The notes under the pieces: model-generated
What the model was told of the DNA's origin: nothing
What the model saw: the letters and a program-made list of their open reading frames with translations, nothing else
Database searches by the model: none
Virus record (IMG/VR): IMGVR_UViG_3300005613_000494
Coordinates: 1 to 20,532 of that record
DNA length: 20,532 nt
Direction: 5' to 3' (one strand)
From: a virus
Translations under genes and position numbers: made by a program
Shown here: piece by piece, positions 3,433 through 11,360 of the stretch
Layout of the letters: every line of letters starts with the position of its first letter
Numbering within the stretch: the first letter of the stretch is position 1

Positions 3433-3930
3433 CTAATCTGTCCAAATATTTTCATCTTTTTTTATTGTAACCACATTGAATATTTTTCTCCAAAAATTTC
3501 TATGTATACATACTCCCTCAACTCTACCACCATCACCACTTTGTGATTTCCATTCAATACCATCACCATTTTCTTGATGATTATTAACAAACTCTCTTAA
3601 TTCATCTGATTGGATGAAGAACGCCTCTTCCCAATCTGGAAAGTAATAAACAAAGTAGTCAGCTTCAGATGACATTATACCACTATCATTACCACTACAA
3701 GATGTTTCAATAAAGATATTCCATGTCATAAACCCTTTGATGTATTCATATCTATCAGTCTTCACCTCAAAGGTTAAATCATTCTCAGTTGAAGAGGTTA
3801 ATTTAAAATCATATTTTTTATCATTTCTAAATTCAGAAACTTTATATTGGGGTCTTTTATTGGTAATATAATCAGCGATTACTTTCTCACCTTTATTACC
3901 TTGTTCTAAATCATTAGTCCATTTACTCAT
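3433..3930 (-). CDS. PD-(D/E)XK nuclease-like protein
   Basis: The 165-residue product looks like a small nuclease of the restriction-endonuclease fold. Near the N-terminus is GNKGEKVIADYI (E15), then YDFKL (D41) and FEVKTDR (E55, K57), which together give the D-x(n)-E-x-K core that binds metal. This is followed by TWNIFIETSC, SGI and a segment ADYFVYYFPDWEEAFFI that resembles the strands after the catalytic core in VSR/Hjc-like and phage nucleases. It could act in recombination, degradation of host DNA or DNA processing. It is one of only two genes on the minus strand, downstream of a sigma-like gene and ending at the bidirectional terminator. The fold call is from motif reading and needs a structure comparison. 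Confidence 0.6.
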   Translation of the reverse strand: MSKWTNDLEQGNKGEKVIADYITNKRPQYKVSEFRNDKKYDFKLTSSTENDLTFEVKTDRYEYIKGFMTWNIFIETSCSGNDSGIMSSEADYFVYYFPDWEEAFFIQSDELREFVNNHQENGDGIEWKSQSGDGGRVEGVCIHRNFWRKIFNVVTIKKDENIWTD

Positions 3931-3982: not shown

Positions 3983-4489
3983 TTATTTTTTTTTATTTTT
4001 ATTGAAATATTTTTTTATTTTTTCTCTCAACCTATAAAATCTATCAACATCTTTATCTGTATAATCGTAACCTTCTGGTTTATTTTTTTCATGTACTTTT
4101 TGTAAACCATCTCTTAATTCATAGAACCTTAGAATATTTTGATAGTCTTCTTCACCCAATATTCTTTTTATTGTTTCCAGTGTTGGTGAGGGAAACATCT
4201 CAAAATTCTCTTCATAAGTATCATTATTGATATTCTCATCATATTGTATCTCTTGATTGGTTAATTTATTAGATAGTTGAAAAACACAATTGCGGTATGT
4301 TAAAAACATATAGTTTTCCAAATCATTCATATTTATTTTATCTTGTTGGTATTTTTCAAATAATTTGATTAATACTTCTTGATATACATCTTCGGTATCA
4401 TACTTACCCTTTAACTTATTGAAGTAACCAGATAAGTAGTATTCCCATTTTCTTCTATTCTTATTTAAAACATTTATAATCTCATTCAT
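3983..4489 (-). CDS. Sigma-70-like RNA polymerase factor
   Basis: From the ATG at 4489 the protein has 168 residues. Residues 31-47 (DTEDVYQEVLIKLFEKY) match the region 2 pattern of small sigma factors, where E-D-x-x-Q-E/D-x-x-x-x-x-F binds core polymerase, and 57-75 (LENYMFLTYRNCVFQLSNK) resembles the following helix, which in ECF-type factors recognises the -10 element. A helical C-terminal part (about 145-165) could be a reduced region 4. The frame stays open further upstream to an ATG at 4565-4567, but that extension runs through the 22-bp repeats and reads as non-protein-like, so 4489 is preferred. It would redirect host polymerase to phage promoters. A second sigma-like gene lies at 10749. 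The region 4 part is weak, so it might bind polymerase without full sigma activity. Confidence 0.6.
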   Translation of the reverse strand: MNEIINVLNKNRRKWEYYLSGYFNKLKGKYDTEDVYQEVLIKLFEKYQQDKINMNDLENYMFLTYRNCVFQLSNKLTNQEIQYDENINNDTYEENFEMFPSPTLETIKRILGEEDYQNILRFYELRDGLQKVHEKNKPEGYDYTDKDVDRFYRLREKIKKYFNKNKKK

Positions 4490-4540
4490 ATAATAAAATA
4501 TATATATGACTACTAATGTTTTCCCAGTTGAAGAAGATAA

Positions 4541-4628
4541 ACCACTACAACAAATATGTATGACCACTACAACAAATATGTATAAGTACTACAACAAATA
4601 TGTATAAGTACTACAACAAATATGTATA
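4541..4628. repeat. Four 22-bp direct repeats (iteron-like)
   Basis: Four head-to-tail 22-bp units occur at 4541-4562, 4563-4584, 4585-4606 and 4607-4628. All share the 19-base core ACTACAACAAATATGTAT(A/G); units 1 and 2 begin ACC and units 3 and 4 begin AGT. A length of two helical turns places each unit on the same face of the DNA, as with plasmid and phage iterons bound by a replication initiator or repressor. Confidence 0.9.
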
Positions 4629-4641
4629 ACTCAATAACAAT

Positions 4642-4680
4642 AATAATAAATTAGAATAATAAATTAGAATAATAAATTAG
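4642..4680. repeat. Three 13-bp AT-rich direct repeats
   Basis: AATAATAAATTAG is repeated three times without gaps or mismatches (4642-4654, 4655-4667, 4668-4680), 13 bases after the 22-bp array. It is followed by a stretch of almost pure A/T. Adjacent AT-rich 13-mers are the usual form of a DNA unwinding element. Confidence 0.9.
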
Positions 4681-4777
4681 AATATATATTTTATTATTTT
4701 ATTCTGGATAGGATATATATATTATATTATTTTTCTTTTGTTACTTTTCTTTTATTGGAAAATATTTCTTCAATTAG

Positions 4778-4808
4778 TTGAAATATCAAAAAAAATTTAA
4801 TAATTTTG
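4778..4808 (+). promoter_or_regulatory. Host-type (TTG-N20-TAnnTTTG) promoter
   Basis: TTG (4778-4780), a 20-base spacer and TAATTTTG (4801-4808) match the Bacteroidota housekeeping promoter pattern exactly. It points into the early region beginning at 4961 and lies just upstream of a phage-type promoter, giving two starts under different control. Confidence 0.6.
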
Positions 4809-4820
4809 TAATATATTTTG

Positions 4821-4850
4821 AACTTTTAAAAATTTCAACATATTTATATA
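4821..4850 (+). promoter_or_regulatory. Phage-type promoter (AACTTTT-N13-TATTTATATA)
   Basis: AACTTTT (4821-4827) and TATTTATATA (4841-4850) are 20 bases apart start to start, the same geometry and nearly the same bases as at 6127-6156 and 10704-10733. CA precedes the downstream box, as at 10722. Transcription would begin near 4856 and yield a leader of about 105 bases. Confidence 0.6.
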
Positions 4851-4852
4851 CA

Positions 4853-4920
4853 AAGAGAGTAAACTCTTACCAATTAAATCTGGGTGTTGGAGGGGTCATG
4901 TCCTCCAACTCTACTTCCCA
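4853..4920 (+). promoter_or_regulatory. Structured 5' leader with two stem-loops
   Basis: The first hairpin is AAGAG (4853-4857) with CTCTT (4864-4868). The second is a perfect 8-bp stem GTTGGAGG (4886-4893) with CCTCCAAC (4902-4909) and loop GGTCATGT; an outer helix TGGG/CCCA (4881-4884 with 4917-4920) can close it. No T run follows, so it is not a terminator. The leader is unusually GC-rich for this intergenic region. It may control translation of the gene at 4961 or act as an RNA in replication. Confidence 0.5.
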
Positions 4921-4960
4921 AAACAAGTAGAAATAAAAATAAGTAGATAAAAATAAACAA

Positions 4961-5674
4961 ATGGAAAATTTTATTAAATTACAAATCAACAAAGATTATA
5001 CATTATACCAAAATGTAATTATATCTTACCTTCAATCTTTTCAAGAGAATAACAAATACTACTACGCTGGTGTAAAAGAATTATCTTCAATATTGAATAT
5101 ACCAATTAGTTCATTAAATAATTCAATTAATGATTTAATTAAAAAGAAAGTAATCTTCAAATCTAAAGATAAAAAACATATCCAACATACATTCAATAAT
5201 CGTAGTGCTATTGTATTAGTAGATAAGAATAATCCTTATCCAACGAATGATACATCAAACATTAAACCTAACGAAGTTAAAACTAAAAATAATACCAATA
5301 TACCACAAGAAGAAATTAAAGACGTTACAGACGAAAAATCACAATTACAAAAATTACTGGAACAAGAGATAGAAGAATTAGATAAAGAAAGAGAACTAAC
5401 CAATGAAGAATTAGATAAAATATTAACCGAAGGTCAGAATGGTGTTTTTTATCCAACTGAAAAAAAACAAAAAGAAATAAAAATTTCTCCAGACTATCAA
5501 ACTACAATAATTAGTAATCAAGGTATAGAAATGAAGATAGATGATGATTTGGTTGAATATTACAATACCAAAATAAAACATAAAACAGGATACATCAAAA
5601 ATCATTTAAAATCCAAATCAGAATATATAATGAATATGAACCTTAGAGATAAGATGAATAGTGAAATATATTAA
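4961..5674 (+). CDS. Winged-helix DNA-binding protein, replication-initiator-like
   Basis: The 237-residue product starts with a winged-helix domain (about 1-85): a helix with YQNVIISYLQSF, then YYYAGVKELSSILNIPISSLNNSINDLIKKKVIF, where LSSILNIPISSLNNSINDLIKK is the helix-turn-helix, followed by a wing. This layout is that of phage replisome organisers and plasmid RepA-type initiators. A low-complexity Asn/Thr/Pro linker and a strongly acidic, probably coiled-coil segment follow (about 120-165), then a basic C-terminal part with KHKTGYIKNHLKSKSEY. It lies directly downstream of the iteron-like repeats, so binding to them is a reasonable inference. It is preceded by two tandem promoters and a hairpin leader. 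The ATG follows an A-rich stretch. A transcriptional regulator is the alternative. Confidence 0.55.
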   Translation: MENFIKLQINKDYTLYQNVIISYLQSFQENNKYYYAGVKELSSILNIPISSLNNSINDLIKKKVIFKSKDKKHIQHTFNNRSAIVLVDKNNPYPTNDTSNIKPNEVKTKNNTNIPQEEIKDVTDEKSQLQKLLEQEIEELDKERELTNEELDKILTEGQNGVFYPTEKKQKEIKISPDYQTTIISNQGIEMKIDDDLVEYYNTKIKHKTGYIKNHLKSKSEYIMNMNLRDKMNSEIY

Positions 5675-5697
5675 TAATAAAAAGTAAAAAAAGAACA

Positions 5698-6117
5698 ATG
5701 AAACAACTAACACAAATTAACGGAAACTGGATGGAGACAATAGCCCATCTATTAAACAATTTAAATAATTTATATTTAAGTGGATTAACAACAGAGAATA
5801 CAGAGGTAAGTATAATTGAAAGTGTATGTTTACCACCAAACCAACATATTGAAATACATAATCCTCTCCCAGTTAAAAATAATACACCAAAGATAACGAT
5901 AGAGAAAAGAACTTGTCCTTCACCACCCAAAGTATCAAAAATAAGTAAAAGTGATTTATATCAAAGGAATTGTGGTAAGTGGAACCCAACCAATTCAAAC
6001 TACAGAAGATGTATGACTTGTGTTGATAATCATTACCAACAAGTAGAGAGTAGTAAGGGTTATGTTGAATTAACTGATATGAATGTACAAAAAAAATGTT
6101 ATTGTAAAAAAAAATAA
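5698..6117 (+). CDS. Hypothetical Cys-rich protein, possible zinc binder
   Basis: The 139-residue protein has no domain I recognise. Its N-terminal third is helical and polar; a Pro-rich middle part follows. The C-terminal half holds Cys at 73, 92, 105, 108, 134 and 136, including RRCMTCVDNHYQ and KKCYCKKK, and a pattern around residues 85-110 (SDLYQRNCGKWNPTNSNYRRCMTCVDNH) that could form a treble-clef-like zinc site. The last residues are basic, suggesting nucleic-acid contact. It follows the replication-initiator-like gene after 23 bases and is probably co-transcribed with it. Its stop lies 9 bases before the phage promoter at 6127. Function is unknown. Confidence 0.55.
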   Translation: MKQLTQINGNWMETIAHLLNNLNNLYLSGLTTENTEVSIIESVCLPPNQHIEIHNPLPVKNNTPKITIEKRTCPSPPKVSKISKSDLYQRNCGKWNPTNSNYRRCMTCVDNHYQQVESSKGYVELTDMNVQKKCYCKKK

Positions 6118-6126
6118 AAAAAATTA

Positions 6127-6156
6127 AACTTTTCCAAACTTCGATATATTTATATA
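6127..6156 (+). promoter_or_regulatory. Phage-type promoter (AACTTTT-N13-TATTTATATA)
   Basis: AACTTTT (6127-6133) and TATTTATATA (6147-6156) have the 20-base start-to-start spacing of the family. AAGAACTATT (6159-6168) then abuts the ATG at 6169. With a start a few bases after the downstream box, the mRNA leader would be only about 7 bases. Confidence 0.6.
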
Positions 6157-8755: not shown

Positions 8756-9517
8756 ATGCCATTAAAGAGATGTCAAATAAATAACCAAAAAGGTTGGAAG
8801 TGGGGTGACGAAGGAAAATGTTACGTAGGACCAGACGCTAAAGAGAAAGCCCTAAAACAAGGTAGAGCCATTGGTGACTATGAATTGGAAAGTTATGATG
8901 ATTATCCAAAGTCAGCTTCAGAGAACGCCTGTAGAGCCCTTAGATGGGTAGAAGAAAATGGTTGGGGTGATTGTGGTGAAAACACAGGTAAACAAAGAGC
9001 CCATCAACTATGTGGTAGAGAAAAAATCAGTAGAGATACAATCGCTAGAATGGCTTCATTTAAACGTCACCAACAACATAAAGATGTACCATATGATGAA
9101 GGATGTGGTGGTCTAATGTGGGATAGTTGGGGAGGAACAGAAGGAATAGAATGGGCTATCAGAAAGTTAGATGAAATCGAAAAGATGGAGAAGATAAATA
9201 ATCTTCAAGAACTACAGAGAAAGGTTAAGGTTGGATTTGATTACGATGATACCCTTACCAAATATAAAGTAAGAGAATTGGTTAAAGAGTTGATTAAAGC
9301 TGGAGGGACTGAAGTTTATATTGTATCCGCTAGGTCATCATCATTTGAGTTATATAGGGTAGGACAAGAATTGGGTATACCATCATATAGAATATTCTTT
9401 ACAGGTAGTAATGAAAAGAAAATTGAGAAAGTTAAACAATTAGGGTTAAACAGATTTTTTGATAACAATCCAGATGTAATAAAAGAATTACCAAATATTG
9501 GTGTATTAGTAAAGTAA
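8756..9517 (+). CDS. Multidomain phage protein with C-terminal HAD phosphatase domain
   Basis: The 253-residue protein joins three parts. Residues 1-36 (RCQINNQKGWKWGDEGKCYV) form a small Cys/Trp-rich motif known from phage proteins. Residues 50-142 (YPKSASENACRALRWVEENG through KRHQQHKDVPYDEGCGGLMW) match a helical domain I know from assorted phage structural or protease-linked proteins. Residues 158-253 are a HAD-type phosphatase with motif I DYDDT (D162, D164), motif II S191 in VSARS, a Lys at 221/222 and motif IV DNNPD (D236, D240), so all catalytic positions are present. HAD enzymes remove phosphate from nucleotides, sugars or polynucleotide ends. The gene lies directly before the large terminase (TAATG overlap). 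The substrate is unknown. Confidence 0.65.
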   Translation: MPLKRCQINNQKGWKWGDEGKCYVGPDAKEKALKQGRAIGDYELESYDDYPKSASENACRALRWVEENGWGDCGENTGKQRAHQLCGREKISRDTIARMASFKRHQQHKDVPYDEGCGGLMWDSWGGTEGIEWAIRKLDEIEKMEKINNLQELQRKVKVGFDYDDTLTKYKVRELVKELIKAGGTEVYIVSARSSSFELYRVGQELGIPSYRIFFTGSNEKKIEKVKQLGLNRFFDNNPDVIKELPNIGVLVK

Positions 9518-10698
9518 TGGAATTAGAGTTAAAAACAACAAAGGTATTCTCAAAAAACCATTCAGCGTTACAAGATGAGAATATACGTTTCATAATTAAT
9601 CAAGGGGGGAGTAGGAGTAGTAAAACCTATTCCCTTTGTCAGTTAATAATAATCTATTGTCTACAAAACCCTAATAAGGTAGTATCAATAGTAAGGAAAT
9701 CATTCCCCTCACTTAGAGCCACAGTAATGAGAGATTTCTTTGAAGTTTTAAAAGATTTAGAATTATATAACTCAGATAATCATAATAAAACAAATCATAT
9801 ATATAGATTTCCAAATGGGACTGAAGTAGAATTCTTTTCAGTGGATGATGAACAAAAGATTAGGGGTAGGAAAAGACATATCTGTTGGTGTAATGAAGCC
9901 AATGAATTAAATAGAGATGATTTTGTACAATTGAATATTAGGACAGATGATAAATTCTTTTGTGACTTCAACCCCTCAGATACAGAACATTGGTTGTATG
10001 ATTTAATTGAAAGAGAAGATAGTATTAAATTACATTCAACATATAAGGATAATCCATTCCTACCAAAATCATTAGTTAAAGAAATTGAAGAGTTAATCAG
10101 AACAGATGAGGATTACTATAACATATATGCCCTAGGTATCCCCTCAAAATCAAAACATACAGTATATAACCATCAAAAGTATTATACATTCAGACCAGAG
10201 AAGACAGAAACATTATTAGGGTTAGACTTTGGTTACCAACATCCAACAGCGTTAGTAAGATGTGATTTCATAGAGAATGAAGTCTATGTTGAAGAATTAC
10301 TATACGAAAGTTATTTAACTACCCCAGAATTAATAGAGAGAGTTAAAATAATATTTAAAGAGAATAACTTTCCAATGTCTACCCAAATCATATGTGACTA
10401 CGCTAGACCAGAAATCATTGAAGATTTAAGACGTAATGGATTTAATTGTGTTAACGCTAATAAGAATGTTAAAGAGGGTATTGATAGTGTTAAATCAAAA
10501 GAATTATTTGTTCACGAAGATAGTATCAACCTTAGAAAAGAATTCAATAACTATAAATGGAAGGTTGTTAACGATAAACTTATTGATGAAGTAATAAAGA
10601 AATTTGATGATGGTATGGATGCTATGAGATACGCTATCCTACATCACAAAAAGAATAATAGTAGTGGGGGATGGGAATTTACATCTTTTTCAATTTAA
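9517..10698 (+). CDS. terL: Terminase large subunit
   Basis: This 393-residue protein is the packaging motor, with an N-terminal ATPase and a C-terminal nuclease. The Walker A variant GGSRSSKT spans residues 30-37, a coupling segment IVRKSFPSLRATVMRDFF follows, and Walker B is HICWCNE (121-127). FFCDFNPSDTEHWLY fits the PBSX/T4-type family (Terminase_3). The nuclease domain shows LLGLDFGYQHPTAL (D237), IICDYARPE (D294) and FDDGMDAMRY (D365/D368), the three acidic positions that hold metal. Length is normal. Its start overlaps the previous stop as TAATG. The small terminase-like gene lies 1.5 kb upstream, separated by four small or accessory genes. A new promoter at 10704 follows the stop. Confidence 0.95.
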   Translation: MELELKTTKVFSKNHSALQDENIRFIINQGGSRSSKTYSLCQLIIIYCLQNPNKVVSIVRKSFPSLRATVMRDFFEVLKDLELYNSDNHNKTNHIYRFPNGTEVEFFSVDDEQKIRGRKRHICWCNEANELNRDDFVQLNIRTDDKFFCDFNPSDTEHWLYDLIEREDSIKLHSTYKDNPFLPKSLVKEIEELIRTDEDYYNIYALGIPSKSKHTVYNHQKYYTFRPEKTETLLGLDFGYQHPTALVRCDFIENEVYVEELLYESYLTTPELIERVKIIFKENNFPMSTQIICDYARPEIIEDLRRNGFNCVNANKNVKEGIDSVKSKELFVHEDSINLRKEFNNYKWKVVNDKLIDEVIKKFDDGMDAMRYAILHHKKNNSSGGWEFTSFSI

Positions 10699-10703
10699 AA
10701 CTG

Positions 10704-10733
10704 AACTTTTCCTTTTTTCTACATATTTATATA
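10704..10733 (+). promoter_or_regulatory. Phage-type promoter (AACTTTT-N13-TATTTATATA)
   Basis: AACTTTT (10704-10710) and TATTTATATA (10724-10733) have the family's 20-base spacing, and AAGAACTATT (10737-10746) ends two bases before the ATG at 10749. It drives a unit headed by a sigma-like gene, which would allow self-amplifying control if that factor reads the promoter. Confidence 0.6.
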
Positions 10734-10748
10734 GTAAAGAACTATTAA

Positions 10749-11360
10749 ATGGATTATTATAAGATTATTAATGATTTTATTGAGGAGAGATATGATTATT
10801 TATTAAGTTGTTGTGTTAATATTTTAAAATACAACGAAAATATCGAACCACAGGAATTATTAAGTGAATTAACCATACACCTATACACTGAAGAAGAAAA
10901 GATAAGGGAGTATATAGAATTAAATAAGTTAGAGGCGTTTTGTGTGAGTTGGTTAAACATACAGGGTAAATACAAAACCTCCCCAGTCAATAGAAAATAC
11001 TACAAATCTAATACTTATCAATTAGATGATTATACACAGGATACTATAGAATTTAATGATGAGAAATTAGAAGATGAATTATATGATGATGAATATTATA
11101 GAAATTTATCACGTCACTTTACTGAAGAACAAATAAGTAAAATTAAATTGGTTGATGACATAATACCAGAGTTAACCAAATCAGAACAGATACTATTCGA
11201 GGCCTATTTCATTCAAAATTTATCTTATGATAAGATATGTCAAAGATATACATTCTATAGAGAGAAAGATGGTAAGAAGATAACATATAAATCCAAAAAA
11301 AGTATATATAACCTAATGATGGGTTTAAGAGAGAAAATAAATAATTTAATAAATAAATAA
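10749..11360 (+). CDS. Sigma-70-like factor (second copy type)
   Basis: The 203-residue protein has the two-part layout of a small sigma factor. Residues 34-50 (PQELLSELTIHLYTEEE) sit where region 2.1/2.2 would be, followed by a helix LEAFCVSWLN like region 2.3/2.4. After a long acidic linker (about 90-125), residues 141-198 (LTKSEQILFEAYFIQNLSYD, then a loop and KSKKSIYNLMMGLREKI) form a helix-turn-helix like region 4, which contacts the -35 element. The helix-turn-helix is interrupted by a charged insert around 168-181. It is preceded by a phage-type promoter. It resembles the minus-strand sigma-like protein in overall plan but not closely in sequence. It could be the factor that recognises the AACTTTT/TATTTATATA promoters; that is inference. 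Confidence 0.55.
   Translation: MDYYKIINDFIEERYDYLLSCCVNILKYNENIEPQELLSELTIHLYTEEEKIREYIELNKLEAFCVSWLNIQGKYKTSPVNRKYYKSNTYQLDDYTQDTIEFNDEKLEDELYDDEYYRNLSRHFTEEQISKIKLVDDIIPELTKSEQILFEAYFIQNLSYDKICQRYTFYREKDGKKITYKSKKSIYNLMMGLREKINNLINK

Follow-up and report, generated by a model that had tools for sequence, protein, structure and literature searches.

A putative iteron-type replication origin and its candidate initiator in a small uncultured tailed phage

At ori-lambda, four iterons, which are 19-bp inverted repeats, lie beside an AT-rich region, and the phage-coded initiator O has an N-terminal DNA-binding part (PMC7466680, PMC3985674, PMC5043065). In the RepA replicon of the PLE satellites of Vibrio cholerae, a replicon with three semi-palindromic iterons of ~30 bp that relies on the helper phage ICP1, co-variation of the DNA-binding domain with the origin, with the C-terminus kept, has been proven, and exchange of an origin-specificity cassette has been demonstrated (PMC8263062). 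The iteron origins of plasmids such as RK2, P1 and F carry helically phased direct repeats beside AT-rich 13-mers (PMC5043065). We compared with these systems a locus in a virus record of 20,532 bases, hereafter the window, which is a fragment of a phage genome. The window belongs to a tailed phage, with TerL at 9517-10698 (Terminase_3, 5e-30) and the portal at 1077-2270 (Phage_portal, 1e-10). Its TerL shares ~33% identity with TerLs from phages of Bacteroides and Parabacteroides, and the related IMG/VR contigs include many of 28-31 kb; the phage is probably a small, uncultured one of about 30 kb with a host among the Bacteroidota. Five related contigs (L087, L178, L009, L132 and L005) were reached through searches with TerL, the portal, the sigma-like gene and the genes at 3433 and 5698, so that the comparison rests on a small base of six contigs, the window included, taken as independent modules. 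The features of the locus are as follows.

3983-4489, minus strand: divergent neighbouring gene, sigma-70-like by a weak match, which flanks the array in the window, L087, L178, L009 and L005 and not in L132
4540-4630, plus strand: iteron array of four 22-bp units with the exact core ACTACAACAAATATGTAT (repeat finding, shuffles)
4633-4820, no strand: AT-rich block, whose first 100 bp form the contig's thermodynamic minimum (duplex stability)
4642-4684, plus strand: AT-rich 13-mers AATAATAAATTAG in 3.3 exact copies, a probable DNA-unwinding element (repeat finding, shuffles)
4822-4847, plus strand: promoter-like motif ACTTTT...TATTTAT before the putative initiator gene (found 4 times in the window, where 0.24 would be expected)
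4855-4931, plus strand: structured leader with three hairpins at 4855-4868, 4886-4909 and 4910-4931 (two-sided changes in relatives)
4961-5285, plus strand: putative initiator gene, codons of the winged-helix DNA-binding domain at the N-terminus and of the first part of the linker (PHROG matches, structure prediction, comparison)
5268-5281, plus strand: linker DNA CTAACGAAGTTAAA, conserved where the domains are swapped (comparison with relatives)
5286-5674, plus strand: putative initiator gene, codons of the linker and of a conserved C-terminal part, retained upon replacement of the DNA-binding domain (comparison with relatives)

The segment from 4540 to about 4820 is very probably the replication origin of the phage, with the product of 4961-5674 as its initiator. 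The 18-bp core occurs in four exact copies at 4544, 4566, 4588 and 4610 (span 4544-4627), spaced by exactly 22 and with no further exact occurrence in the 20,532-base record, and Tandem Repeats Finder reported 4540-4630 (period 22, 4.1 copies) and 4642-4684 (period 13, 3.3 copies, 100% match). Both the array and the 13-mers are far beyond chance: lag-22 self-similarity over ~4 copies was 0.95, whereas 300 shuffles of the window that preserved dinucleotides never exceeded 0.68, and that of the 13-mers was 1.0, with no value above 0.77 among 1000 local shuffles. An earlier note on this DNA had described four 22-bp repeats, three exact 13-bp repeats and a long A/T tract, and all of these were found in place, the tract at about 4685-4704 after the 13-mers; the 13-mers do follow the array, but the gap between the last core and the first 13-mer, given there as 13 bases, measured 14. 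By nearest-neighbour energy, no 100-bp stretch of the window is less stable than the one that starts at 4633 (92.5 kcal, against a second-lowest value of 100.6 and a mean of 116.0, sd 5.8). The GC skew of the window is monotonic, tracks the coding strand and gives no origin signal, speaking neither for nor against the origin reading.

The array and the AT block resemble those of the plasmid origins in their helically phased direct repeats and adjacent 13-mers, and resemble ori-lambda in the pairing of an iteron array with an AT-rich region and a probable initiator with an N-terminal DNA-binding part. Unlike the lambda iterons, those of the window are direct repeats, and the array ends at 4630, upstream of a conserved leader and outside the gene that starts at 4961. 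Unlike the plasmid origins, the origin region contains no DnaA boxes that could be found: the exact box TTATNCACA is absent from it, and one-mismatch matches are not common to L009, L178 and L132. One-mismatch 9-mers of this kind (TTATACATA; TAATCCACA) do lie inside arrays, on the minus strand at 4577, 4599 and 4621 of the window and on the plus strand at 4566, 4588, 4610 and 4632 of L087, and they are probably due to chance because the arrays of L009, L178 and L132 lack them.

The exact iteron sequence had no match among all viral contigs, and the repeats of the module differ in sequence among all five related loci. The layout of a 22- or 23-bp array, an AT block and then the initiator gene is nevertheless kept in L087, L178, L009 and L132 and, more loosely, in L005, so that the iteron layout is conserved among relatives and the iteron sequence is private to the window. 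L087, whose portal is 94% identical, has four exact copies of AGGTAGGTAATCCACAGGTTAC; L178 has a 22-bp array of degenerate units around TTACnnnnnGGTAA, a dyad that recurs in the L087 units (TTACAGGTAGGTAA); L009 has a 23-bp array with TCTTATTTAATAA 13-mers; L132, which encodes a homologue of the DNA-binding domain of the window, has about five 23-bp GGGACAA... repeats with AT 10-mers; and L005 encodes a DUF6291 protein (2.8e-17) with loose AACCCA repeats. The stability minimum of the contig adjoins the array on the initiator side in the window, L087, L178, L009 and L132, and lies elsewhere in L005. A scan of the fetched loci for arrays of period 16-30 found, beyond those of the window, L009 and L087, only those of L005 and L030 (both at initiator genes), L077 and L175. 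That the repeats are a recent local duplication without function, as exact copies can be and as a unit not common to different phages might suggest, is barely credible given the few such arrays elsewhere and the retention of position, 22/23-bp spacing and AT block in five contigs despite differing sequences. In L009, the module of sigma-like gene, array and initiator gene is inverted relative to the flanking genes; compared with the window, the inverted segment is 4171-6077 (initiator, origin, sigma-like gene and 3433-gene). The sigma-like gene was considered as reader of the array and rejected, being 83% identical in L087 despite an entirely different array and absent from the L132 module, where an array persists.

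The gene at 4961-5674 codes for 237 residues, for which Pfam gave sub-threshold winged-helix matches only and PHROG a weak match to 'replication initiation protein' (6e-4). The earlier note had read 4961 as a winged-helix gene, and AlphaFold does predict, with fair confidence, a single winged helix spanning residues 15-86, the rest of the model being unreliable; the C-terminal half matched no family. In a fold search this winged helix matched many kinds of winged-helix proteins (best E 0.017), among them weakly 4pt7 'initiator' and 5kbj 'Rep-DNA complex' (E 0.03-0.09). Rep_3/TrfA-type proteins have two winged helices, unlike the one predicted here, and neither Rep_3 nor RepA_N was among the Pfam matches, so that by sequence the protein is also unlike PLE RepA in not belonging to the RepA_N family. 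In searches of viral contigs, annotated phages, plasmids and genome contigs its sole match was the L009 homologue (50-53% identical), which itself matches HTH_36 (6e-8) and the replication-initiation family phrog_270 (2.6e-8), as well as phrog_345 (5e-4). The match to the 'O-like' phrog_678 is weak for the window protein (0.1) compared with that of the L009 homologue (3e-5), and Pfam Phage_rep_O scores the latter below cut-off (0.22). Matches to phrog_270 in genome searches were discarded as proof, the family having been matched in 12 of 14 control genomes as well. Taken together, the protein weakly and loosely groups with known phage replication initiators; of the former impression that repeats and protein were both unrelated to known ones, the privacy of the repeats stood, but the protein falls weakly among the PHROG replication-initiation and O-like groups. 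Both homologues found, in L009 and L132, carry a 22-23-bp array and AT block at the same position; homologues without nearby repeats had been named beforehand as grounds for abandoning the pairing of repeats and protein.

The location of the array between two divergent genes, together with a predicted winged helix that is about as similar to MarR-type regulators as to Rep proteins, would also suit an operator through which a repressor or activator controls the sigma-like and its own promoters, with replication starting elsewhere. We regard a purely regulatory role as unlikely, since the AT-rich 13-mers and the stability minimum lie on the initiator side, the protein has replication-initiation family matches, distant relatives have lambda-O-like intragenic arrays and no other initiator candidate emerged among the proteins searched; it is quite possible that the protein regulates its own gene besides acting at the origin. 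Direct-repeat arrays bound by winged-helix proteins can also be centromeres, as with TubR. A partition centromere of the TubC/ParC type bound by a TubR- or ParR-like protein is highly improbable here, because no tubulin-, actin- or ParA-like NTPase was found alongside (the products of the next genes, 5698 and 6169, gave no match to these families) and the unstable AT block would be left unexplained. These two downstream genes likewise matched no helicase-loader family, and, unlike in lambda, no P-like loader was recognised next to the initiator gene. No DNA polymerase, helicase or primase was matched among the searched proteins of the window and of the L005 genome, a set that did not take in every small ORF, and the phage likely depends on the host replisome.

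The origin reading gains most from the way in which array and DNA-binding domain have been replaced together. Between the window and L087, in 50-bp bins, the sigma-like gene is 72-98% identical, the array 38-50%, the leader ~85%, the winged-helix codons mostly 30-58%, the C-terminal end ~85% and the downstream DNA mostly 80-100%. Neighbouring DNA is thus mostly 80-98% identical where array and winged-helix codons are replaced, with the leader and the C-terminal end kept. L087 and L178, which share the C-terminal part of the 4961 protein and have an array at the same position, are about 95-100% identical over 1 kb outside two main dips, one at the array and the other at about codons 26-83 of the winged helix; minor differences are a small indel in the AT block and a short linker stretch. 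By this comparison, what was replaced in two separate patches is the set of repeats and the domain that should recognise it, close relatives having swapped both together as a matching pair. This co-variation backs the link between repeats and protein that the earlier note had put forward, and with the conserved layout and the replication-initiation matches it makes the iteron-origin interpretation a strong one. The linker DNA CTAACGAAGTTAAA is present at the swap junction in the window, L087, L005, L132 and L006. The N-terminal domains of L087 and L178 form one family, which in L087 matches phrog_186 (1.8e-5); the AF2 model of the L087 initiator was too poor for use (pLDDT 38). At ~4516 of L178 a one-base deletion relative to L087 breaks the initiator frame after the winged helix, either through sequencing or assembly error or in reality.

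The repeats, the stability minimum, the protein family resemblance, the layout conservation and the co-replacement were computed here; for initiation itself, we infer a course in which the N-terminal winged helix would bind the four 22-bp iterons, which, being about two helical turns apart, would lie on one face of the DNA. The complex so formed would wrap or bend the DNA and melt the adjacent 13-mer block, and the C-terminal part would recruit or load the host replicative helicase. The module would work like a lambda O or PLE RepA replicon, its protein being a candidate initiator with established membership in neither class. With PLE it shares an intergenic origin candidate, co-variation of iterons and DNA-binding domain, a kept C-terminus and module swapping; unlike that of PLE, the candidate is the phage's own origin. 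The probable origin is thereby located for a phage group for which a literature search found none described, and nothing was found on iterons of Flavobacterium phages.

Between the AT block and the start codon, the window, L087, L178 and L132 have in common the promoter-like motif and the three-hairpin leader (4855-4960, 4835-4939, 4133-4237 and 1258-1362, respectively). Two-sided changes preserve hairpin pairs, GUUGGAGG/CCUCCAAC becoming GUUGGUGG/CCACCAAC, and CUACUU/AAGUAG becoming CUUCUU/AAGAAG and CUCUUU/AAAGAG. The 3' strand of the third helix (AAGUAG, AAGAAG or AAAGAG) has a second, covarying copy just before the start codon, so that two alternative pairings are possible. The window leader folds more stably than shuffled versions of it (z -3.3), the others being less clear (-1.6 and -1.8), and no Rfam family matched it. 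On the basis of four sequences, one pair of which is nearly identical, the leader may set initiator dosage.

In phages with TerLs ~58% identical, the probable initiator gene often contains an array of 9-12-bp period around codons 85-132, where the DNA-binding domain joins the C-terminal one, so that the lambda-like placement of iterons inside the initiator gene is met in distant relatives only. Where the period is 10 or 11 bp, which is not a multiple of three, the arrays are repeats at the DNA level, and peptide repeats are ruled out as their cause. The DNA-binding half is DnaD-like in L055, L020 and L026 (PHROG) and L017 (similarity), DUF6291 in L014, L030 and L041 (Pfam) and L047 and L075 (similarity), DUF1376-like in L142, which resembles L134, itself matching DUF1376 below cut-off, and without a family name in some others. 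Initiators of distant relatives match phrog_2514 (1e-25 to 1e-33), so that these and the L087 N-terminal domain resemble phage DnaD-like helicase loaders or replisome organizers (phrog_186, phrog_2514), to which the window protein has no match. L055 and L030 are 84% identical in the last 75 residues and 23% in the first 95, whereas L055 and L017 are 77% identical over the N-terminal of these stretches and 14% over the C-terminal one; by such comparisons, initiator halves are shuffled among distant relatives. DUF6291 (PF19808, of unknown function), for which a literature search found no paper naming it, occupies the DNA-binding slot of the probable initiators of L014, L030, L041, L047, L048 and L075, whose genes contain 9-11-bp arrays directly after the domain.

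A possible reading, which we hold tentatively, is that origin specificity, i.e., iterons plus reading domain, forms a cassette that has been swapped time and again while leader and C-terminus stayed constant, with DUF6291, DUF1376-like and L087-type winged-helix domains as interchangeable iteron readers and the leader RNA setting initiator dosage. If so, these three domain types would be new replication-initiator classes, and the exchange might serve escape from origin-directed nucleases or parasites, or avoidance of incompatibility. For DUF6291 and related domains, which have no function today, the reading of phage-origin iterons is suggested; L087 and L178 would offer a natural, nearly isogenic origin-initiator pair in which the correspondence between winged-helix residues and iteron bases could be deciphered directly.

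The motif ACTTTT-N13-TATTTAT, perhaps a phage-specific promoter, also recurs upstream of genes, at 4822-4847, 6128-6153 and 10705-10730 of the window and at 6081-6106 and 11188-11213 of L009. The window has two sigma-factor-like genes in one small phage genome, at 3983-4489 (minus strand) and 10749-11360 (plus strand), with weak matches to Sigma70_r2 and a match to phrog_1740 at 6e-5.
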